DNA of 64,000 bases from Panacagrimonas perspica (GTDB taxonomy: Bacteria > Pseudomonadota > Gammaproteobacteria > Nevskiales > Nevskiaceae), in contig NZ_SOBT01000008.1 of the NCBI RefSeq assembly GCF_004364935.1, positions 1-64,000 of the forward strand, in the 5' to 3' direction. Each line of letters starts with the position of its first letter. The stretch's first letter is position 1. The position numbers and the translations under genes were made by a program. This document shows, in pieces, positions 47,264 through 57,480 of the stretch. Below the pieces are notes generated by a model, which saw nothing but the letters and a program-made list of their open reading frames with translations, ran no database searches and was not told the DNA's origin.

Positions 47264-48049
47264 TTATTCGTCGAAGCTCATGCCCATGATGTTGTAGCCG
47301 GCATCGACGTACAGGATTTCTCCGGTGACGCCGGACGCCAGATCCGAGGACAGGAACGCGGCCGCGTTGCCGACTTCCTCGATGCTGACGTTGCGCTTGA
47401 GCGGCGAGGCGCTGGCAGCCTTGTTCAGCATGGTACGGAAGCCCGTGATGCCGGCGGCGGCCAGTGTCTTGATCGGTCCGGCGGAGATGCCGTTGACGCG
47501 GATGCCCAGCTCGCCCAGTTCCGCCGCCATGAACCGCACGTTGGCTTCGAGACTGGCCTTGGCCGGGCCCATGACGTTGTACATCGGGACGGCGCGTACG
47601 GCGCCAAGGTAGGTCAGCGTGAGCATGCTGGCGTTGCGCCCGGCCATCAGCGGGCGGGCGGCCTTGCCCAGCGCTGCGAACGAATACGCGCTGATGTCGT
47701 GCGAGATCCGATAGCCCTCGCGCGTCACCGAGTCGAGGTACTTGCCTGCGAGCTGCTCGCGCGGCGCGAAGCCGATCGAGTGCACCAGCACGTCGAGTTC
47801 GCCCCACTGGTTCTTCAACTCCTTGAAGACCTCGTCGATCTGCGCGTCGTCGGAGACATCCAGCGGCAGGACCAGCTTCGAGCCGCAGCTCGCCGCGAAT
47901 TCCTCGACGCGGCTCTTCAGGCGATCGCCCTGGTAGGTGAAGGCCAGCTCCGCGCCTTCACGCTTGAACGCCTCGGCGATACCGGTGGCGATGGAGCGGT
48001 CACTGGCGACGCCGGTGATGAGCGCTTTCTTGCCGGCCATGAAACCCAT
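47264..48049 (-). CDS. fabI: Enoyl-[acyl-carrier-protein] reductase (NADH), FabI
   Basis: 261 residues, matching FabI length. [20 protein letters not shown] opening with the FabI-type cofactor loop, [12 protein letters not shown], the catalytic Tyr-Lys pair in [20 protein letters not shown], and [12 protein letters not shown]. It performs the last reduction of each fatty-acid elongation cycle and is the triclosan target. ATG 48049 reproduces the E. coli N-terminus; the frame extends upstream without similarity. It is preceded by a hairpin that separates it from the Exb-type operon. Confidence 0.96.
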
Positions 48050-48198
48050 GCGGATATTCCTCTTGTGCGTACGGATGAGCGCCCAGTTTCCCGGTTTGAG
48101 AGTGGGCACGCCAGTGAGACGGGCGGCTCGGCGGGACCTCGCGCTACCAGGCCCTGTTGCCGGTCTGGAGGAATGCCGGCGACGCCGCTATGAAACCA

Positions 48199-48239: not shown

Positions 48240-49220
48240 TCAGGTGGGCAGGAAGACGATCGGGTAGTTCGGGTACGTGAACTCGGGAACGTTCTTCGGG
48301 CCGAAGTTCAGCAGTTTCACGCGCTGGATGACCTTCTGCTCGAGATCCGGATCGCCCAGTTCGCTCGAAACCAGTTCGCAGGCCGTGACCGAGCCGTTTG
48401 GCGCGATCGTCAGACGGACCACCACCTTGCCGCGCAGATCCGGGTTCTCGCGCAGGGCGCGATTGAACATCGAATAGAACGAGGCCTTGTTGCGATCGAA
48501 CACGAGCTGGATCTCTTCCAGCGTGCGTCCGGCGAGCTTGGCCTGGCCCGACTGCCCCGGCTTGGTCATGTCGGGACCGACGCCCTTGGGCGCCTGGACG
48601 ACCGTGGTGCGGCGCTGGCCCAGCCCGGCACCGCTCTGCGTGCGCGGAGAGGTGTTGGAGGCCGTCCCGATGCCGCCGCTACCGCTGGCCGCAGAGGACG
48701 CCACCGAAGCAGCTCCACCGCCGCCGGCACCCGGGCGGGCGGAGATCACTTCGTCGCTGAGCGGGCGCGCTGCATCCAGGCCCGACAGGGAGTTGTCACG
48801 CAGGTCGGCAAGCTGGTCGGCGAGCGCGTTGATGCCGCTGGCCTTGGCTACTTCACGCGCGGCCTGCTCGAGCTGCTGCTGCGTCGGCTCGGGCTTGGGC
48901 GGCGTGACGGCCTTCGGCGCGGGCTCCTTCTTGGGCTCGGGCTTCTTGACCTCCTTGACTGGCTCCGGCTCGGGCTTTTCTTCTTCTGCCGGCTTGGGCT
49001 CCTCGACCTGTTCCGCGATCTCGGCATCCGGAAGGATGTTCACGTACGTGGTGTCGGTGGTTTCACCGCCGCCTTCCTGTACGCCCAGCAGTTCGAGGAA
49101 CGGAATGATGACCGCCAGGATCACGAAGATGATGCCCACCACCGTCGAGATGCGACGGAAGCGGCGATCGGCGGCCTCGTTGAAGGCCCAGCCTTCGGCT
49201 GAGAGCACGAACATGCTCAT
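48240..49220 (-). CDS. TonB/AgmX-type energy transducer
   Basis: 326 residues. One TM helix near the N-terminus (about 27-46, VVGIIFVILAVIIPFLELL). A long Pro/Glu/Lys-rich periplasmic segment follows (about 75-120), then a Gly/Ser/Ala linker. The AgmX/PglI-type C-terminal domain comes last: FDRNKASFYSMFNRALRENP, DLRGKVVVRLTIAPNGSVTA, then VIQRVKLLNFGP. It plays the TonB-like role of carrying force across the periplasm. ATG 49220 overlaps the upstream exbD stop (ATGA). Last gene of the operon. AgmX/GltG-type proteins belong to the Myxococcus gliding apparatus; the parallel is inference. Confidence 0.85.
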   Translation of the reverse strand: MSMFVLSAEGWAFNEAADRRFRRISTVVGIIFVILAVIIPFLELLGVQEGGGETTDTTYVNILPDAEIAEQVEEPKPAEEEKPEPEPVKEVKKPEPKKEPAPKAVTPPKPEPTQQQLEQAAREVAKASGINALADQLADLRDNSLSGLDAARPLSDEVISARPGAGGGGAASVASSAASGSGGIGTASNTSPRTQSGAGLGQRRTTVVQAPKGVGPDMTKPGQSGQAKLAGRTLEEIQLVFDRNKASFYSMFNRALRENPDLRGKVVVRLTIAPNGSVTACELVSSELGDPDLEQKVIQRVKLLNFGPKNVPEFTYPNYPIVFLPT

Positions 49221-49729
49221 AGCGCTTCGGCCCCTTCCTTCTCGATCACGGCCAGCGAGATCTTGGCGAAGCGCGTGTCGCTGCACGTCGCCATGACTTT
49301 CTTGAGCACGTGAAAGGGAATGGACTTGTCGGCCATGATGTTGACGTCACCGCGGGTGAGCTGGCCCGCCCCGGCGCCATCGACCTGCATCAGCGTCTCT
49401 TCGTTGAGCTTGTACTTGAGATCCGGCAGCACCGTGGTGGTCGAGGCCGCGGCATCCGCCGTGCTCATCACCCGCTTGGTGTCGACGATGATGTCCTCGG
49501 GTGTGATGAGGATCAGCACCGTCTGCTTGGGGTCTTCCTTGGCGATCGACTCCGGCAACTGGAGCGCCTTGGGACTCGGAAGGATCTCGACGACCAGCGC
49601 GTTGACGAGCAGGTAGAAGACGAGAATCGCGAAGATGTCGATCAGCGAGACGACGTTGAGTTCGCCTTCGCGGGCTTCCCTGCGAAGTTCGCGGACGATC
49701 TTGCGGGCACGACGGGCACCGGCATTCAT
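49217..49729 (-). CDS. ExbD/TolR-family protein (second copy)
   Basis: 170 residues. TM helix with the proton-carrying Asp (LNVVSLIDIFAILVFYLLVN, about 24-43). A periplasmic domain contains TVLILITPEDIIVDTKRVMS and ends VMATCSDTRFAKISLAVIEK. It partners ExbB in a proton-driven stator. It overlaps both neighbours (ATGA with the transducer, and with the first exbD). Two unequal ExbD proteins in tandem resemble AglQ/AglS or paired TolR-like stators rather than the single ExbD of a plain TonB system. Confidence 0.9.
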   Translation of the reverse strand: MNAGARRARKIVRELRREAREGELNVVSLIDIFAILVFYLLVNALVVEILPSPKALQLPESIAKEDPKQTVLILITPEDIIVDTKRVMSTADAAASTTTVLPDLKYKLNEETLMQVDGAGAGQLTRGDVNIMADKSIPFHVLKKVMATCSDTRFAKISLAVIEKEGAEAL

Positions 49730-50259
49730 GGTGCGCCTCCCTGATCGAGCTTCTGGGCTTCGCCCACCGAGATGTTCGGGAACAGCTCGCGCGGAAGACC
49801 GGTAGCGCGTGCTTCGGCCGGCGTCAGACGGATGGCATCCATGATCTTGACCATGTCGTCATAGACGACGTCGGCTTCCATCATCAGCACGATGTTCTGT
49901 TCCGATGGCTTGGTTTTCTTGACCTCCACGAGCAGATCCGACAACGCGCTGAGGTTGTAGCCCTGCGGTGTGTTGACGATGTTGCGCACCGCACCCTGGC
50001 TGTCGGACACCTCGATGACGCCCTTTCGCACGACGGCGGTGAGCTGGAGCTTCTGCTGCTCCGGGATCGATTGCTTGTCGGGCGCCGGCAGGTTGAGGTT
50101 GATCACGTTGAGTCGTGCTGCGGCGAGCGACGAGCTCACCAGCAGGAAGAACACCAGCACGGCGAACACGTCGATCATCGACACGATGTTCAGGCGCACG
50201 ACACGGGCGCCGAACTTGTGCTGGCGCTCCATGCGGCGGACGCGGCGCGTCATCTTCAT
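49726..50259 (-). CDS. ExbD/TolR-family protein (first copy)
   Basis: 177 residues. A basic N-terminus (MKMTRRVRRMERQHKFG), then the TM helix with the conserved Asp (LNIVSMIDVFAVLVFFLLVS) and a periplasmic domain (KLQLTAVVRKGVIEVSDSQG, EQNIVLMMEADVVYDDMVKI). It lacks close similarity to the second ExbD outside the TM segment, so the two may form a heterodimer. It is 43 bases after exbB and overlaps the next gene. Confidence 0.9.
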   Translation of the reverse strand: MKMTRRVRRMERQHKFGARVVRLNIVSMIDVFAVLVFFLLVSSSLAAARLNVINLNLPAPDKQSIPEQQKLQLTAVVRKGVIEVSDSQGAVRNIVNTPQGYNLSALSDLLVEVKKTKPSEQNIVLMMEADVVYDDMVKIMDAIRLTPAEARATGLPRELFPNISVGEAQKLDQGGAP

Positions 50260-50302
50260 GGCTTAAGGCCTGTTTCTGGACAGTGCGAAAGGCCTGCGCG
50301 GA

Positions 50303-50947
50303 TCAGACGCTGCTCCGCGTGCGGCCGCAGACGGTGCTGACGAACTTGGCGCAGACGCCTTCCAGGCCGTCGACCAGGGCCGTCGTGCGGCTCTGCAGGT
50401 AGGCGTGGATCATCAGCGTCGGGATGGCGGTCATCAGGCCGAACGCGGTGCAGTTCATGGCCTCGGAAATACCGGCCGAGAGCAGGTCCGCCTTCTCCGC
50501 AGGGTCCGCGCTGCCCAGTGCTGCGAACGCACCGATCAGGCCGATGACGGTACCCAGCAGGCCCATCAGCACCGACATGTTCGAGAACGTCGCGAGGTAG
50601 TGCGTGCGCTTTTCGATCGCCGGAAGGACTTCCATCAGGCCTTCTTCGGTGGCTACTTCGACTTCGCTGCGCTTGTTCTCGACGCGCGACTGCGCGATGC
50701 CGTTGGACAGGATGCGGCCGATGGCCGTGTCCGAATCCTTGACCAGGCGCTCGGCGCCTTCGATCTCGCCGCGGCTCAGCAGCGGCTGCACAGCGGTCCA
50801 CAGCTTCTTGTTCTCACGCTCGGTGCGGCCGAGGAAGACCCAGCGTTCGATCGTGATGCAGATCGCCAGTACGAGCACGACGGCGATCGGATACATGAAC
50901 AGGCCGCCTTTCTGGAAGAAGGTGACGATGGCGGAGAGTAAGTCCAT
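50303..50947 (-). CDS. MotA/TolQ/ExbB proton channel protein
   Basis: 214 residues, three TM helices (about 16-36, 120-150 and 165-190). The MotA/TolQ/ExbB core reads THYLATFSNMSVLMGLLGTV, IGLIGAFAAL and ISEAMNCTAFGLMTAIPTLM. It forms the pentameric channel that uses proton flow to drive the ExbD pair. It begins the second half of the operon after an 85-base gap that is somewhat AT-richer and might hold a promoter, although I could not identify one. Confidence 0.92.
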   Translation of the reverse strand: MDLLSAIVTFFQKGGLFMYPIAVVLVLAICITIERWVFLGRTERENKKLWTAVQPLLSRGEIEGAERLVKDSDTAIGRILSNGIAQSRVENKRSEVEVATEEGLMEVLPAIEKRTHYLATFSNMSVLMGLLGTVIGLIGAFAALGSADPAEKADLLSAGISEAMNCTAFGLMTAIPTLMIHAYLQSRTTALVDGLEGVCAKFVSTVCGRTRSSV

Positions 50948-51032
50948 GGGGATTCTCGGTTGACGTTGCAGGAGTTGTATTGAAAAGCGCGAAAGCTGTT
51001 ATTTGAAGCGTAAGTGTTACAAGCGGTGCGGC

Positions 51033-51407
51033 TCAGGGTTTTGCCGGTGCCGCAGCGGGCGCAAGCTTTGCGTTCGCAGCAGCGGTGAGAGCTTTGTGAT
51101 ACTCGACTTGGCGGGCGAAGACATCGCGATCGATCGGCGTCATTTCCACTTGCAGCAAGCGTGCCGGACGATCGATGTCCTGTTCCGCAAACGCGTTGCG
51201 CCAAGGCGTGATGTACAGGCCGATTGGCGATTCGCGTTCACCGACGATCGTGGTGCCGGAGTCGTCGCGCAGATCTTCGCGCGCGCCGCCGACCGCGACC
51301 GCAGGTTGTTCGTCACCGGCTTTCGGAGGGGCAGGCTTCGGCTGCTGCTGCGCGTTCGCCATCAGCGGTGCGCCGAGTGCCAGGACCAGGAGCAGACGTC
51401 GGAGCAT
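51033..51407 (-). CDS. Small exported protein of the Exb/TPR operon
   Basis: 124 residues. Signal peptide about 1-19 (LRRLLLVLALGAPLMANA). A Pro/Lys-rich start is followed by a short conserved-looking block (IGLYITPWRNAFAEQDIDRP, ARLLQVEMTPIDRDVFARQV) and an Ala/Pro/Lys tail. I recognise no family. It is coupled to the TPR lipoprotein stop (TGATG) and precedes exbB, so it is probably a periplasmic part of the same complex. A GTG one codon upstream is an alternative start. Confidence 0.75.
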   Translation of the reverse strand: MLRRLLLVLALGAPLMANAQQQPKPAPPKAGDEQPAVAVGGAREDLRDDSGTTIVGERESPIGLYITPWRNAFAEQDIDRPARLLQVEMTPIDRDVFARQVEYHKALTAAANAKLAPAAAPAKP

Positions 51408-52069
51408 CACTTGACCCCCTGTTCGGCTTGGCCCGCAGGGACGGCAGCTTCTTCAGCCTTGGGCTGACGCGCCTCGATCTCGGCGATCCACGGCAGCACG
51501 CGCAGGTCCTTGCCGCCGCTCAGACGGTAGTACTCACGATAGTGGGCAATCGCTTCGTTCGGCTGGTTGAGCTGATCTTCCAGCAGCAGACCCAGATTCA
51601 GGTGCGCGGCGGCGTAATCGGGCTTGACCGAGATCGCCTTCTCGTAGCTTTCCTTGGCACGCGGGAAGTTGCCGGCCTCGCGATTCACGATGCCGAGCCA
51701 GTTGAACGCCGATGCGTTCTGACCGTTGGCCGTGGCTGCGCGCGTGAACGCGGCAATCGCCTCGTTGCGACGATTGGACTTTGCGAACAGGATCCCGAGG
51801 TTCGTCTGCGGGCCCGAGAATTCAGGGAAATCCCGCGAGAGGGCCATGAACGCTGCCTCGGCTTCCTTGGTCTTCTTCTGCTTCATCAGCTCGAGGGCTT
51901 CGGCGAAGCGGCCTTCGGGATCGCCCTTGTCGGCAGCAGGCTCGGTGGGCTCGGACGGCGTTGCCGAAGTATCCGGCGTGGCCGAACGGTCCGGCCTCGT
52001 GGACGACTTGCCGCCGCAGCCGGCAAGGGCCGCGGCCATCACGAAGGCGAGTGCGATCTGGCGCAGCAT
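51407..52069 (-). CDS. TPR lipoprotein of the Exb/TPR operon
   Basis: 220 residues from ATG 52069. Lipobox LAGC (Cys about 18), a Ser/Thr/Pro linker (about 20-50), then four or so TPRs: EALELMKQKKTKEAEAAFMA, GILFAKSNRRNEAIAAFTRA, FNWLGIVNREAGNFPRAKES, NLGLLLEDQLNQPNEAIAHY. An ATG at 52099 would add ten residues before the signal and overlap the upstream gene. Likely outer-membrane anchored, comparable to GltE/AglT-type TPR lipoproteins (inference). Confidence 0.85.
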   Translation of the reverse strand: MLRQIALAFVMAAALAGCGGKSSTRPDRSATPDTSATPSEPTEPAADKGDPEGRFAEALELMKQKKTKEAEAAFMALSRDFPEFSGPQTNLGILFAKSNRRNEAIAAFTRAATANGQNASAFNWLGIVNREAGNFPRAKESYEKAISVKPDYAAAHLNLGLLLEDQLNQPNEAIAHYREYYRLSGGKDLRVLPWIAEIEARQPKAEEAAVPAGQAEQGVK

Positions 52070-52082
52070 CTGCGAACCCGTG

Positions 52083-54905
52083 TCAGCGCAGAGTGCCATA
52101 CGTGTCCTCGCTCTGTTCGCGCTTCGAATACTTGCCCGGTGCGATCTTCACCAGCGCCGCGGCGCTCTGCTTGACCCAGGTGTCGTAACGGCCTTGCTCG
52201 ATGCGCTTGATGTTCGCCTCGTGCGCCTGGATCGCCTTCTCCTCGAACGGGAAAGCCTGCTCCTCGAGAAGCAGATTGTACTGCTCGAGTTCGAGATCCT
52301 TGAGCTTGGCCGGACGCTCCGAGGTCATCAGCGACTGGCCGAAGTCCTGGTACAGGCCCGCGATCTCGAACGTCGCAGCGGTGGTCGTCTCGGCAAAGCC
52401 GTAACCCGCGGCCTGATTGAGCGAACCGATCGCGGTTTCCATCGCTTCCTTCTTCGCGGCGAGGCTCTTGTCCAACGGAGCGGTCAGGCGCAGCTTGCGA
52501 GCGTCGAGCGCAGCCATGCGGCCCAGTTCGAGACTCGATTTGGCAGCCAGCGTGCGGGTGGCATCGGTGCGCTGATTGCCCGCTCCCTGATCGGCCTTGA
52601 CGATTTCCTTGAGCCAGTAGACCTGCGTCGCCGTGTCGCCACGCGCCAGCGACAAGTCCACCAGCCGCGAGCGGGCTTCCATGGCGCGGTCGAGAGGACG
52701 CGGGAACGCGGTCACGTACGCCTGGTGAGCGCGGAAGGATTCGGCCGGCTGCTTCGCACCGTCGTAGAGCTTGGCGGCCTGCCACGAGGCTTCGCGGCGC
52801 ACCGGTTCGGCTTCGCTCGTGCGTGCGGCGATGCGCTCGTAGGCCTGCGCCGCCTGCGCCGGCTTGTTGTCGGCCTCGTAGGCGCCGGCCAGCTTCTTGT
52901 CGACGTCCGCGGACAGCGTGTTGGTCGGGAAGCGGGTGCGGAACGATTCCAGGACCTGTGTCGCGGCCGGCCAGTCCTTGAGTTCGACCAGGCTCGAGGC
53001 CGCGTCGTAATCCGCGTTGGCGCGGATCTTCGAATCGGGCGTGACGCGGCCGACGCGCAGGAAGTCGTCGACGGCCTTGCGCAGGTCCTTCGATTCCTTG
53101 GCAGCTTCGCCCTGCTTGTAGATGCTGGCGGCGAGCTGCTCGGTGACTTCGGAGCGCTCCGCCGTGCCGGCCGGGATCAACGCCAGTTCCTGCGCGTAGG
53201 CAACTTCGGCAGCCGGATAATTCTTCTGCTGGAACTGCGCGTCGGAGGTCACGCTCCAGGCGTTGCGTCGCAGCACCGGATCGACATTCGGGCCGGCGTC
53301 GAGCACGCGCTTGGCGACGGTGATCGACTCGTCCAGCGACTTCATCTCGAACAGGTCCTGCGCGGCCTGCGACAGCACCGGCAGACGCGACGGATGCTGC
53401 GGGTACGTATCGGCCAGCTTCAGGCCGGAGTCGACAGCCTGGCGCAGCGCGACCGGGCGCTGGGCCGCCGGAACTTCCTTCGCATTCTTCTCGTACGCCT
53501 GGAAGGCGGCGAGGGCGGCCTCACCCGATTTCGAGTGCGGCGGGTACTTGTACGCCGTCTCGGTGTACTGCTCCGCGGCGTCGAGCGTCTTGCCGCCATC
53601 GAGCAGGGCATCGCCGAGCAGGAAATTGATCTCCGCGATCTTCGGATCGTTCGGATAGATCTCGATCGTGCGCTTGTACCACTTGGCCGCAACCAGGAAC
53701 TGGTCACGCTTGCCGACCTTGTCGGTCTGCGCCTGCGAGTGGTTGTACTTGGCCAGGTCCTCGAGGTGGCCGCGCAGCGCGGTCATCACTTCGGGCGTGG
53801 GTTTGGCGCCGGCCCAATACGGCGCGGCCGGATCGTACGTGGTGGCGTAGCGTTCCTTCTCGCGCGTCACCAGGTCGCCGAATCCGCCGCTGGCGTAGGC
53901 GTCGATCACGCGCGACTGGAACGTCGGCGCGAGTTCGTGCTTCGCATAACGCTGCGTGAAGGCCGTGAAGGCTTCGGCGGCATCGGTGAAGCGCTGCTTT
54001 TCGAGCAGCATGGCGCCCAGTGCGTTGTAGACCAGCGGGTAGAAGCGCGGGTCGCCGTTCTTGGCGAAGCTCTCGCTGACGGCCATGCCGCCGCCCAGCG
54101 CCGCGAACGACAGCGACACCACGCGCAGCGAATCACGCGCCAGGTCGGTCTTGCCACGCTCGACGCCTGCGAGCGCTTCCTCGACTTCGAGCGGAACCGG
54201 ATCGTCGGGCAGCTCGCGATCCAGGATGTCGAAGAAAGTCGCGATGGCGGCGTCGAACTTGGACTGGCGGTACTGCGACCAGCCCTTCATGTACTGGGCC
54301 GGCTCGAAGAACGGCGTGCGATCGTCGTAGGACATGACAGTCGCAAACTCGGCTTCGGCCTCGGGAAAGCGGTCGAGCCGATAGAGCAGGTCGGCGCGGC
54401 GGAAGTGCGCGTCGCCGGTCAGCGCGGAATTCTTGAAATCCTTCGAAAGCTTGTCCAGCGTGGCGATCGCGTCTTCGCTCTTGCCGAGGTTCTGCTGGGC
54501 ACGCGCAAGCTGGTACAGGATGCGATCGTTCTTCTCGTCCTGGGGCCGCTCGTTGAGCAGACGCTCGTAGGTGCGAACTGCCGAGCGCAGCTGCGTTTCG
54601 CTCTCGGTGGTTCCGCCCGCCAGATCGTCGGTCTGGACCTGCAGGTCGGCGAGTCGACGCTGCGCCTCGGCCTGGACGTTGGCGTCCGGCTTCATCGCCA
54701 GCAGCTTCTTGTAGTTCTCGAGGGCCTTGTCGGCATCCGGGGCAATCGGTTCCGACCGGATGACCGGGATCTTGGCCTCGTCAGGGTTCTCCTTCTTCTT
54801 CTCGGCCAACACGGAGCGAATCGACGGGGCAGGCTTGCCGGCACCATCACTGGCGCAGCCGACGAGCCAGACCGCGAGGCAGCTGGCGGCCAGCGTGCGC
54901 AGCAT
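52083..54905 (-). CDS. Very large TPR lipoprotein of the Exb/TPR operon
   Basis: 940 residues from ATG 54905; a GTG at 54926 overlaps the upstream stop (GTGA) and is an alternative. Lipobox WLVGC (Cys about 17). The rest is nearly continuous TPR/HEAT-like helical repeats, with clear TPRs such as ALENYKKLLAMKPDANVQAE, ILYQLARAQQNLGKSEDAIA, FRRADLLYRLDRFPEAEAEF, EINFLLGDALLDGGKTLDAA and AGAYEADNKPAQAAQAYERI. Size and location suggest a periplasmic or outer-membrane scaffold linked to the ExbB/D stator. No catalytic motif is visible. Confidence 0.88.
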   Translation of the reverse strand: MLRTLAASCLAVWLVGCASDGAGKPAPSIRSVLAEKKKENPDEAKIPVIRSEPIAPDADKALENYKKLLAMKPDANVQAEAQRRLADLQVQTDDLAGGTTESETQLRSAVRTYERLLNERPQDEKNDRILYQLARAQQNLGKSEDAIATLDKLSKDFKNSALTGDAHFRRADLLYRLDRFPEAEAEFATVMSYDDRTPFFEPAQYMKGWSQYRQSKFDAAIATFFDILDRELPDDPVPLEVEEALAGVERGKTDLARDSLRVVSLSFAALGGGMAVSESFAKNGDPRFYPLVYNALGAMLLEKQRFTDAAEAFTAFTQRYAKHELAPTFQSRVIDAYASGGFGDLVTREKERYATTYDPAAPYWAGAKPTPEVMTALRGHLEDLAKYNHSQAQTDKVGKRDQFLVAAKWYKRTIEIYPNDPKIAEINFLLGDALLDGGKTLDAAEQYTETAYKYPPHSKSGEAALAAFQAYEKNAKEVPAAQRPVALRQAVDSGLKLADTYPQHPSRLPVLSQAAQDLFEMKSLDESITVAKRVLDAGPNVDPVLRRNAWSVTSDAQFQQKNYPAAEVAYAQELALIPAGTAERSEVTEQLAASIYKQGEAAKESKDLRKAVDDFLRVGRVTPDSKIRANADYDAASSLVELKDWPAATQVLESFRTRFPTNTLSADVDKKLAGAYEADNKPAQAAQAYERIAARTSEAEPVRREASWQAAKLYDGAKQPAESFRAHQAYVTAFPRPLDRAMEARSRLVDLSLARGDTATQVYWLKEIVKADQGAGNQRTDATRTLAAKSSLELGRMAALDARKLRLTAPLDKSLAAKKEAMETAIGSLNQAAGYGFAETTTAATFEIAGLYQDFGQSLMTSERPAKLKDLELEQYNLLLEEQAFPFEEKAIQAHEANIKRIEQGRYDTWVKQSAAALVKIAPGKYSKREQSEDTYGTLR

Positions 54906-54922
54906 GTGGGGCGGAAGGGGAA

Positions 54923-56902
54923 TCACTTGACGTCGACCTCGTCAGCATCGCCCGAGGGCGTCTTCTTGGCGGGCTTTCGGAGAATCTGCGGTTCCAGCGG
55001 TTTGGTCTTGTCGATCTCGGCTTCCCCTCGCTGTAGCTTCTGCTTGCGAATGGGCTTGCCTGCATCGTCCATCTCGACTTCGTCCTGGTCCTGTTCTGGC
55101 AGGGCGCCGTCATACATGCGCGCCAGCGCGAAGCGGGTCTCGACCAGATATTTGTCGATCGTCCCCTTCTGCAGGTTTAATTCTTCCAGCGCCATCTTCT
55201 GCAATTGCGCCGCGGCGTCGCGCTGCGACTTGGTGATGATCGGCATCATCGCGGAGCTGCGCGAGCGCACGCTCTGCAGGCGTTCGAACGGGCCGTCGAA
55301 CTTCGAAGGCACCAGGCTCAGCTTGAGCGGCGGGACCTTGGCGGGTGCGCCCGGCGCAGGCGCGGTGTAGGAACCGGGGGCGGCGAGCGTGGTGGCTTCC
55401 TCGAGCTGCAGGTCGCCCTTCTCGTGCTCGGGCTTCCAGGTGCGCTTGGCGCGCTGGAACAGCGTGCGCGGCTCGATCATCGCGCGCGTGGAATCGTTGA
55501 ACGAGGCGTCGACCTTGGAGATGCGACCCTTCCACCCTTCCAGGCTGCGATTGAGCATGCGCAGATCGCGGTAGTTCTTCAACGATTCCAGGTAACGGTG
55601 TTCGGCGATCAGCGACTGCAGATAATAGGTCTCGGGCGCGTCGGGCAGATCGCGCAGTTCCCACATCCAGCCGCTCTCGGAGTTGGCGTCGCGCTGGACG
55701 ATCGTTTCGACCATGCGGCCGCTGTTGATCGAAGTGATCGCAGCATCGGTGCGTTTGCGCGCGGCTTCCAGGCGATCGGCAGCCTGCTCGTAGAACTGCG
55801 TAGCCTGCAGATGTGCCCCCAGGCGATCGAGCGCAAACGGCACGGCCAGCCAGGATTCCTGGACCGCGGGATCCTGCGGATCGCGGTCGACGAGCATCGA
55901 CCACACCTGGAGCGCGCGACGCAGTCCGGCCTCTTCGTCCTTGGCAGCTCCACCGCGGCGGAAGTTGCGTATGCCGGCGCGATCGTAAGGATCGTCGAGG
56001 TAACCGCGGCGCAGCAGCACACCGAGCGAGGAGAACGTGTTGAACGGATCGTTCAGCTCGCGCAGTTTCTGATCTTCGGTCAGCTCGCCGCGGGTCTGTC
56101 GCTTGCCCTGCGGCGCGATTTCGGACCAGCCGATGCCCAGCAGCGCGCGATTGGCGTAGATGCCCTCGCTCTGCACGCGGACCAGCACCGGCTTGGCGGA
56201 CCCGCCGAGCTGGTTCTGCAGGAAGTGCCAGCCCAGCGTGGTGTTGGCGCGATCACGCAGCGCCCGGACCAGTTCGCTCTTGCCGGTGTGGCGTCCCACG
56301 CGATCGAGTGCGGTGCGGCCTTCAGCGAGCCGACCGTCGTTGATCAGCGCGACGCCGAGGTTGTAGCGCATGAACGCCGCATCGTCGGTGTCGTCGTCCA
56401 CACCTTCGAGAACCGTGATGGCCTCGTTGTAGCGACCCTGCGCCATCAGTACGCGCGAGTACAGATCCTTCCACTCGATTTCGAGTTCGGGCGGCAATTT
56501 TTCGCGCGCCCTCAGCAGGCTCGCGCGGGCCTCGTCGAGATAGCCACGCTGGTAGGAGAATTCGGCGAGGCGAATGCGCGCCTGGCCTCCGACCACGGGG
56601 TCCGCGGCGGCGGCGGCGACCGAGCGATACAGATTCTCGGCGCGGTCGCGCAGACCGAACGAGAGGCTGTACTCGGCGATCGCCGACCAGTATTCGGGTG
56701 AAGCTTCGAAATCCGGTCCGGCCGCCCGCTGCAGCTTCTGCAGCTCGGTGATGGCGGAATAGAAACGCTCGTCACCCCCCAGGAAGATCGCCGACCGCAC
56801 ATGCGGATCGTCGGCGGAGCCGGGGACATAGGTGTCCGCCAACGCGGCGAACGACAACAAGAGAGCCGACAGCGCCGTCGGCACGACCAGGCGACGCTTC
56901 AT
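54923..56902 (-). CDS. Large secreted TPR protein of the Exb/TPR operon
   Basis: 659 residues from ATG 56902, which overlaps the upstream stop (ATGA). Signal peptide about 1-22 (LVVPTALSALLLSFAALA). The first 300 residues have TPR-like repeats (YSAITELQKLQRAAGPDFEA, NLYRSVAAAAADPVVGGQAR, FMRYNLGVALINDGRLAEGR). A helical region with a Pro/Ala linker (about 490-510) and a charged C-terminal tail (PIRKQKLQRGEAEIDKTKPL) follow. No lipobox, so it is probably periplasmic. I recognise no named family beyond TPR. Confidence 0.87.
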   Translation of the reverse strand: MKRRLVVPTALSALLLSFAALADTYVPGSADDPHVRSAIFLGGDERFYSAITELQKLQRAAGPDFEASPEYWSAIAEYSLSFGLRDRAENLYRSVAAAAADPVVGGQARIRLAEFSYQRGYLDEARASLLRAREKLPPELEIEWKDLYSRVLMAQGRYNEAITVLEGVDDDTDDAAFMRYNLGVALINDGRLAEGRTALDRVGRHTGKSELVRALRDRANTTLGWHFLQNQLGGSAKPVLVRVQSEGIYANRALLGIGWSEIAPQGKRQTRGELTEDQKLRELNDPFNTFSSLGVLLRRGYLDDPYDRAGIRNFRRGGAAKDEEAGLRRALQVWSMLVDRDPQDPAVQESWLAVPFALDRLGAHLQATQFYEQAADRLEAARKRTDAAITSINSGRMVETIVQRDANSESGWMWELRDLPDAPETYYLQSLIAEHRYLESLKNYRDLRMLNRSLEGWKGRISKVDASFNDSTRAMIEPRTLFQRAKRTWKPEHEKGDLQLEEATTLAAPGSYTAPAPGAPAKVPPLKLSLVPSKFDGPFERLQSVRSRSSAMMPIITKSQRDAAAQLQKMALEELNLQKGTIDKYLVETRFALARMYDGALPEQDQDEVEMDDAGKPIRKQKLQRGEAEIDKTKPLEPQILRKPAKKTPSGDADEVDVK

Positions 56903-57480
56903 TCTTCCGCCGCCCTCCATTCCTTGAGCTTCATCGCCGGCTCGGACTTGTTACGACCGCGGAAGACCTGGAGTTCCACTTCGGCTGCTTCCAGATCCTT
57001 GGTGAACGTGGCCTCGAACTCGCCCGTTACCGGTATCGGCTTCTTGTCGCCCGCGACATAGTTGCCTTTGTAGCTGACACGCAGGCGATGAACCCCGCGT
57101 TCCACGTTGGTGAGCAGCAGACGTTGCAGCGCACCGTCGACAAGCAGAGCTCGTGAATCCTGGTCGCCGTAGTGATAGGTCACCGGCTGGCGATCGTCGA
57201 GCGTCAAGCTGAAGTCGGTCAGCAGCACGTTCTTCAAAGTATTGCTGACGTAGACCGACAAACGGGTCTGCGGCGGGTAGAGGAAGGCCTCCTCGGCCAT
57301 CAACGAGTCCCGATTGAACTGGATCGTCTCGTCCTTGACCGCCTGGATCGTCTGGTCGAGCGTGATCGCGCCATCGTCGACCGGGACCGGCGCCACTGCG
57401 TGCGCACCCGTGACCGGAAAGGCCAAAAGGGCACAGACGCAAAGGTGTCTCAGAGCCGTTCGGCCAGAGAAATGAGGCAT
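56899..57480 (-). CDS. Exported hypothetical protein heading the Exb/TPR operon
   Basis: 193 residues from ATG 57480. Signal peptide about 1-26 (LRHLCVCALLAFPVTGAHA). The mature part looks beta-rich: LDQTIQAVKDETIQFNRDSL, YPPQTRLSVYVSNTLKNVLL, TNVERGVHRLRVSYKGNYV, then FEATFTKDLEAAEVELQVF. I recognise no named family. Its stop overlaps the following large TPR gene by ATGA, so it is the first gene of the operon; gloB lies 139 bases upstream in the same direction. Confidence 0.8.
   Translation of the reverse strand: MPHFSGRTALRHLCVCALLAFPVTGAHAVAPVPVDDGAITLDQTIQAVKDETIQFNRDSLMAEEAFLYPPQTRLSVYVSNTLKNVLLTDFSLTLDDRQPVTYHYGDQDSRALLVDGALQRLLLTNVERGVHRLRVSYKGNYVAGDKKPIPVTGEFEATFTKDLEAAEVELQVFRGRNKSEPAMKLKEWRAAEE

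Follow-up and report, generated by a model that had tools for sequence, protein, structure and literature searches.

The first 64,000 bp of contig NZ_SOBT01000008.1 of Panacagrimonas perspica (assembly GCF_004364935.1, forward strand) were analyzed in this study and are called the window below. At 48240–57480, nine genes lie on the same (minus) strand in an operon-like row, in the order 9-8-7-6-5-4-3-2-1. They encode an ExbB-type protein, two ExbD-type proteins, a TonB-like transducer, three tetratricopeptide repeat (TPR) proteins, and two further exported proteins. The operon probably encodes a gammaproteobacterial core complex of the Agl-Glt/Nfs class, in which a motor would drive the transducer GltG and a TPR scaffold on a surface or outer membrane (OM) client. 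This kind of operon is already known in Gammaproteobacteria, and the window holds one more member. The features are as follows; signal peptide and lipobox calls were made by eye.

56899..57480, minus strand: gene 9, first gene of the operon, exported protein of 193 aa (open reading frame and ATGA overlap with gene 8; no named Pfam or NCBIfam family)
54923..56902, minus strand: gene 8, GltC-type exported TPR protein of 659 aa (TPR hits in Pfam)
52083..54926, minus strand: gene 7, GltD-type TPR lipoprotein (TPR hits in Pfam and NCBIfam; lipobox LVGC)
51407..52069, minus strand: gene 6, GltE-type TPR lipoprotein of 220 aa (best NCBIfam match gliding_GltE, 4e-13, under its cut-off; lipobox LAGC)
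51033..51407, minus strand: gene 5, exported protein of 124 aa from an unnamed family (TGATG overlap with gene 6)
50303..50947, minus strand: gene 4, ExbB/AglR-type proton channel subunit of 214 aa (MotA_ExbB, 1.1e-26; AglR clade, 100/96)
49726..50259, minus strand: gene 3, ExbDa, of the AglQ lineage, 177 aa (ExbD, 7.9e-16; trees; membrane Asp kept)
49217..49729, minus strand: gene 2, ExbDb, of the second ExbD lineage, 170 aa (ExbD, 4.5e-14; trees; membrane Asp kept)
48240..49220, minus strand: gene 1, GltG-type TonB-like transducer with an AgmX/PglI tail, 326 aa (NF033768, 5.1e-17; TonB_C, 6.3e-6)
47267..48109, minus strand: fabI, a stable neighbor not counted in the machine (scores of FabI models reach 405 bits, under the cut-offs)

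Layout and protein families of the operon

The order of the nine genes was unbroken in all 41 motor-bearing loci compared in this study. Such constancy is not expected by chance, which supports the operon originally predicted here. Overlaps of the ATGA type were counted at the 9/8, 3/2, and 2/1 junctions and one of the TGATG type at 6/5, giving four where the original prediction had counted five. The junctions it had described around the TPR genes were found as GTGA at 8/7 and a 13 bp spacer at 7/6. Wider gaps separate genes 5 and 4 (85 bp) and genes 4 and 3 (43 bp). Gene 7 encodes 940 aa from the ATG at 54905 or 947 aa from the GTG at 54926. Promoter and terminator scans gave results at chance level only.

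The families of the nine proteins were investigated with Pfam and NCBIfam. Pfam assigned MotA_ExbB, two ExbD domains, and TonB_C, as well as TPR families in genes 6, 7, and 8; window genes 5 and 9 had no Pfam match. In NCBIfam, gene 1 exceeded the cut-off of the AgmX/PglI tail (NF033768), with GltG (NF033760) second at 3.4e-10, below its cut-off. The transducer end is therefore of the AgmX/PglI type, as expected from the first reading of the sequence, and the protein has a single membrane helix near residue 27. Gene 7 passed a YbgF/CpoB-type TPR model (96.6 bits against a cut-off of 90.1). The NCBIfam equivalog cut-offs for TolQ, ExbB, TolR, and ExbD were all missed widely: gene 4 scored 47 of the 206 bits for ExbB, and the two ExbDs scored 14–20 of the 123–216 bits for the ExbD models. 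A sequence search of the PDB gave no match for the transducer and, for GltC, one weak TPR match of no use.

Two lipoproteins and two secreted proteins had been described as largely TPR. This held for three TPR proteins (659, 940, and 220 aa); the exported proteins of 193 and 124 aa had no convincing family hit. The predicted channel residues were present in the window ExbB and, as the membrane Asp, in both window ExbDs; in most relatives the ExbDa Asp is lost (26/41 loci). Two ExbB threonines, which we take to have a channel role, were invariant in 15 cores and kept in 41/41 loci.

Conservation and descent of the core genes

Conservation was investigated in 61 related genomes, P. perspica included, with GltD accepted at E up to 1e-40 and the AglR-type motor at E up to 1e-35. 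GltD was present in 45 genomes and the motor in the same 45; GltC was matched in 46. Almost every motor (52/53) lay 706–1398 bp after a GltD gene, and the remaining one lay on another contig than its GltD. Among 397 Pseudomonadota genomes (P. perspica included), GltD occurred in 15, all of the class of the window. The window GltD had no match in the plasmid collection.

Synteny was examined in 60 loci, window included, with nine profiles on the same strand at set distances from GltD. GltD was present in 53 loci, and 41 of these, from 37 genomes, had a motor. In the 41 motor loci, gene 9 was present in 41, GltC in 37, gene 5 in 40, and GltD, GltE, ExbB, ExbDa, ExbDb, and GltG in 41 each. Because the loci were picked by GltC or GltD matches, the counts for these two genes are not independent. 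The neighborhood survey suggested in the original prediction thus found the TPR genes kept together with the exb set. GltC-like loci without GltD (L060, L062–L065, L077, and L080) stood outside every synteny count; they lack the rest of the core, and some adjoin a transporter that looks RND/MMPL-type by eye.

The two unnamed exported proteins were as constant as the motor, an observation new in the present survey. Since genes 5 and 9 occurred in 40/41 and 41/41 motor loci, the machine includes both. For each family, 15 proteins searched in NCBIfam had no convincing match. In Pfam, the 15 gene 9 proteins likewise had no convincing match, and gene 5, searched as the window protein only, had none. 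Weak homologues of gene 9 head a GltC-GltD-GltE-GltG-type locus in Hyalangium (E 5e-5) and a GltC-GltD-type locus beside mglA in Myxococcus (E 8e-7); no decoy in this search reached E 0.5. A single-sequence structure model of gene 9 had a mean pLDDT of 41 and was discarded. Gene 5 had no match in 17 myxobacterial and Geobacter-group loci. It may be the additional core gene without a Myxococcales homologue reported in PMC3169522, for which it is a candidate.

The nearest neighbors of the window operon are fabI and gloB. A tenth gene on the same strand, fabI lies about 130–190 bp past gene 1, depending on the choice of start, and follows the operon immediately in 14 of 19 other primary-type loci. 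Upstream of gene 9, a gene for a LysM and lytic transglycosylase (MltD-like) protein was observed in eight primary loci (L050, L053, L055–L059, and L061).

The descent of the motor was investigated with profiles and trees. Named genomes for comparison, such as Myxococcus, were reached via an MglA query, and the ExbB search alignment consisted of 15 core ExbBs. Myxococcus sp. CA023 had two AglR-type matches of 170 and 158 bits; its other ExbB-like proteins scored at most 89 bits. In the ExbB tree of 54 rows, 27 gammaproteobacterial core proteins and 7 myxobacterial AglR-type proteins formed one clade of 34 rows with a support of 100/96. Outside this clade lay TolQ and ExbB of E. coli and the TolQ of P. 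perspica; the tree output warns of long branches there. One too-short row had been left out, followed by seven others (a duplicate of the window ExbB, a repeated Geobacter row, and five short rows including E. coli MotA). In the ExbD tree of 66 rows, 24 TolR/ExbD-type proteins were separated at 99/98 from the other 42, which comprised 10 myxobacterial Agl-type ExbDs and 32 core ExbDs (from 16 of the 41 core loci). A larger tree without an outgroup separated first from second ExbDs at 100/100 and split the 10 myxobacterial rows evenly, five to each lineage. In the tree with outgroups, the second ExbDs stayed together (100/99) and the first lineage formed an open fork. The phylogeny proposed as a check in the original prediction placed ExbB and both ExbDs on the Agl side and not with TolQ/ExbB or TolR/ExbD. 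The results indicated that the motor shares ancestry with AglR and Agl-type ExbD proteins.

The gene order of the myxobacterial loci was consistent with these trees. ExbB-ExbDa-ExbDb stood in line by profiles in Myxococcus and Hyalangium (L162, L163, L170, and L171), and so did GltD-GltE-GltG (L167, L168, L172, and L173); L167 and L173 presumably represent Nfs. The Nannocystis locus L174 carried a weak GltC-like protein, GltD, GltE, ExbB, ExbDa, ExbDb, and GltG, in the order of the window. The GltD profile scored 155–307 bits in nine myxobacterial loci, with 291 bits for the Myxococcus GltD-type protein. The core-type GltG profile scored 55–99 bits in seven myxobacterial loci and 22 bits in L164. 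GltC fitted by position and TPR content, and its myxobacterial match was weak or of a general TPR kind. The two Geobacter-group genomes gave weak or general matches only. The Glt-like identity was supported by profiles, by the ExbB and ExbD trees, and by co-conservation.

One-Asp motors and sister copies

The proton-carrying Asp of ExbDb was present in 41/41 loci. At the same site, ExbDa carried Asn in 25 loci, Asp in 15, among them the window, and Ser in 1. Both ExbDs of the window keep the Asp; ExbDa of the second copy in P. perspica and of Nannocystis has Asn. The Asn/Ser-type ExbDa proteins form one side of a branch with a support of 91/87. In both Myxococcus motor loci, the Asp of the first ExbD is residue 28 from an ATG, which fits AglQ D28. 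The D28N exchange in AglQ abolished proton conductance and function in Myxococcus (PMC3858216). The change that paralyzes Myxococcus thus occurs naturally elsewhere, an observation likewise new in the present survey. No description of natural one-Asp motors appeared in the passages of the literature matches examined, preprints lying outside this scope.

An Asn-type ExbDa homodimer should be dead, leaving a one-Asp heterodimer axle or an axle of ExbDb only. The heterodimer is the simpler reading, because both ExbD genes are kept in 41/41 loci. The chances appear about even that two-ExbD motors are obligate ExbDa-ExbDb heterodimers, and that most of the sampled gammaproteobacterial cores run a one-Asp 5:2 motor with the residue of AglQ D28N. 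P. perspica would then possess both kinds, with two Asp in the window motor and one in that of the second copy. According to a 2022 review (PMC9389320), whether AglQ and AglS form homo- or heterodimers is an open question, on which natural one-Asp motors bear. A coupling between the ExbDa Asp and an ExbB Glu (Glu in 13/15 Asp-type loci, absent in 25/26 Asn/Ser-type loci) was considered and rejected, because the tree provides only 1 or 3 independent pairs on starred branches, which is too few.

P. perspica has three copies of the core: the window copy, the second full copy (L039/L218, C1 about 1511000–1528750), and a motorless copy (L040, C1 about 800500–811000). The 75 GltD hits in the 61 relatives included 23 without a motor after them, 13 of these with at least 5 kb of contig left and 10 near a contig end or unclear. 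Ten loci (L040, L068, L070–L074, L078, L079, and L208) had genes 8-7-6-5 but neither motor nor transducer, and gene 9 was present in nine of the ten; two further loci (L197 and L207) were cut by contig ends. The recurrence of motorless copies was also new in this survey. All 45 GltD genomes hold at least one motor. The motorless modules may borrow the motor of another cluster, for which Myxococcus Nfs with its use of AglRQS offers a precedent (PMC3858216).

Eight of 17 wider loci and the second copy of P. perspica are extended operons, in which a block on the same strand precedes the nine genes. The block contains an SH3-barrel protein, a TIGR04565-type barrel, a TlpA-type thioredoxin, DUF4266, and DUF3570, with an HZS_alpha protein at the head where the sequence reaches that far. 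In the second copy, ApbE, HZS_alpha, the SH3-barrel, the TIGR04565 barrel, thioredoxin, DUF4266, and DUF3570 all lie in front. ApbE was present in 5 of 10 upstream stretches, three of which belong to copies without DUF3570. A three-gene divergent unit (a weak PSD2/DUF1585-like protein, a laminin-G protein, and a 530–558-aa protein without a Pfam hit) adjoins extended operons at L213–L216 and L219. TIGR04565 proteins also occur in GltC/D/E/G-type clusters of Myxococcus and Hyalangium, 5 of 6 over the cut-off. The M. xanthus OM barrels GltA and GltB bind GltC (PMC4488436), and the TIGR04565 barrels may correspond to them.

Of the 397 genomes, 29 had DUF3570. Among the 15 GltD-positive genomes the number was 12, and in 9 of these 15 DUF3570 lay no more than about 6 kb from GltD (Fisher p 8e-13 for the association, uncorrected for relatedness). 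In Chlorobium luteolum, DUF3570 receives its flavin through ApbE; the family travels with DUF4266 and thioredoxin (PMC8238504), and the word ExbB is absent from that text. A second setting, with DUF3034, globin, and FMN_bind as neighbors, was observed in 11 of 16 further GltD loci of P. perspica and its relatives, and in part at L079; 10 loci of this type have PepSY and 4 have ApbE. The motorless copy of P. perspica, with genes 9, 8, 7, 6, and 5, lies beside ApbE, PepSY, FMN_bind, globin, and DUF3034. The joining of sister operons to OM barrel and flavin-transfer genes is new in the present survey and provides a functional lead.

These neighborhoods raise the alternative that an extracytosolic flavin redox system of the envelope depends on the core for its drive or its position; the client would then be the barrel-like DUF3570. 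The recurrence of both gene sets beside the core speaks for it. None of the families was found in the 64-kb window, however, so the lead is not directly transferable to the window copy, and many other cores are also without them. In addition, flavinylated DUF3570 is reported to have two [ST]GA[ST] motifs (PMC8238504), whereas the nine DUF3570 proteins here had one exact motif in 4 cases and a near-variant only in 5. We consider this alternative unlikely. The absence of these barrel and redox families from the window agrees with the earlier statement that no obvious receptor accompanies the operon, which holds for the window copy. The primary and extended types may not divide sharply: in the primary copy of G031, a sub-threshold SH3-barrel protein (49.5 of 60 bits; L223 3323–4522, in the L032 and L051 region) lies about 2.2 kb before gene 9. 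This protein is a possible OM partner of the window type.

Proposed function and comparison with known systems

In the core complex proposed for the window, an ExbB pentamer would surround one ExbDa and one ExbDb, and proton flow past their membrane Asp residues would drive the motor. GltG, through its AgmX/TonB-like end, would pass the force through the periplasm to a scaffold of GltC, GltD, and GltE facing the OM, which would include the two unnamed proteins of genes 5 and 9. The complex would thereby span both membranes, and the scaffold would move or reshape a client at the cell surface or in the OM. For the window copy, the client may be encoded elsewhere in the genome. Contacts between AglR and GltG (PMC3858216) and among GltA, GltB, and GltC of Myxococcus (PMC4488436) have been published and are consistent with this arrangement.

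Several points weigh against this proposal. The literature search found no experiment on a gammaproteobacterial core. The OM barrel families tested have no gene next to the window copy. The matches of GltC and GltE to myxobacterial proteins are partly general TPR signal. Gene 1 also has no His in its membrane region or elsewhere in its first 70 residues, unlike the SHLS motif described for TonB and TolA.

The presence of ExbB, ExbD, and TonB_C families, together with a general similarity to TolQ in solved structures, would also fit a specialized relative of Ton or Tol-Pal that pulls an OM receptor or Pal for import or envelope constriction. The trees and the equivalog scores given above place the window motor elsewhere, and the genome has its own TolQ, adjoined by TolR, at another site. 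The nine proteins gave no TolB, Pal, or receptor family hit, although gene 7 does pass the YbgF/CpoB-type model. A Ton or Tol-Pal relative is therefore quite improbable.

The gliding function suggested in the original prediction was not supported. MglA was found in none of the 61 relatives at E 1e-10, nor in P. perspica at E 0.001, in a search in which Myxococcus and Sorangium were positive. The MglA in a record titled Comamonas sp. KCTC 72670 (L083) shares 99% identity with the Myxococcus protein, so the record may be mislabeled. The membrane helix of the window GltG lies about 27 residues from the start, whereas five myxobacterial GltG-type proteins have theirs 253–456 residues along the open frame (one further protein was cut by its stretch and one had no helix over the threshold), so that the long part before the helix is missing. 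A TIGR04565 barrel over the cut-off was found in 3/61 relatives, each time beside a secondary copy, with weaker matches in 30/61; the 64-kb window had none. The core alone has also been judged insufficient for motility (PMC3169522). The motor lineage and the presence of GltC/D/E/G are shared with Myxococcus, but a true gliding machine of that kind is therefore very unlikely, the least probable of the readings considered.

The core complex of the Agl-Glt/Nfs class was compared with known systems. Tol-Pal and TonB-ExbB-ExbD share the motor and transducer superfamilies, but contain no GltC/D/E set and occupy separate tree branches. The vWA force-transducer clusters described in PMC12204202 likewise combine one TolQ-like gene, two TolR-like genes, and a TPR gene; the end of their transducer is vWA, whereas that of the window is AgmX/TonB-like. 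Myxococcus Agl-Glt has the same AglR-type ExbB, two Agl-type ExbD genes, GltD/E/G order, and TPR proteins. It differs in its scattered genes and in MglA, the long GltG part before the helix, and OM barrels, none of which was found with the window copy. The Myxococcus Nfs sporulation complex, a module resembling GltC/D/E/G, relies on a motor encoded in another cluster (PMC3858216), as the motorless gammaproteobacterial modules would need to do; these modules, however, are without GltG as well.

The closest counterpart is the gammaproteobacterial core cluster of gltC, D, E, G and aglR, Q, S, described in 2011 with function unknown (PMC3169522) and later called a standalone core system in many gammaproteobacteria (PMC3858216). 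It has been proposed as the ancestor of the gliding and spore-coat machines of Myxococcus (PMC3169522). Of general interest in the present survey are the motors with one Asp, the constant, unnamed genes 5 and 9, and the sister operons with a flavin link. The Group B genes of PMC3169522 include the same seven gene types in one cluster; the survey extends this to a constant parts list of nine genes, two of which are unnamed.

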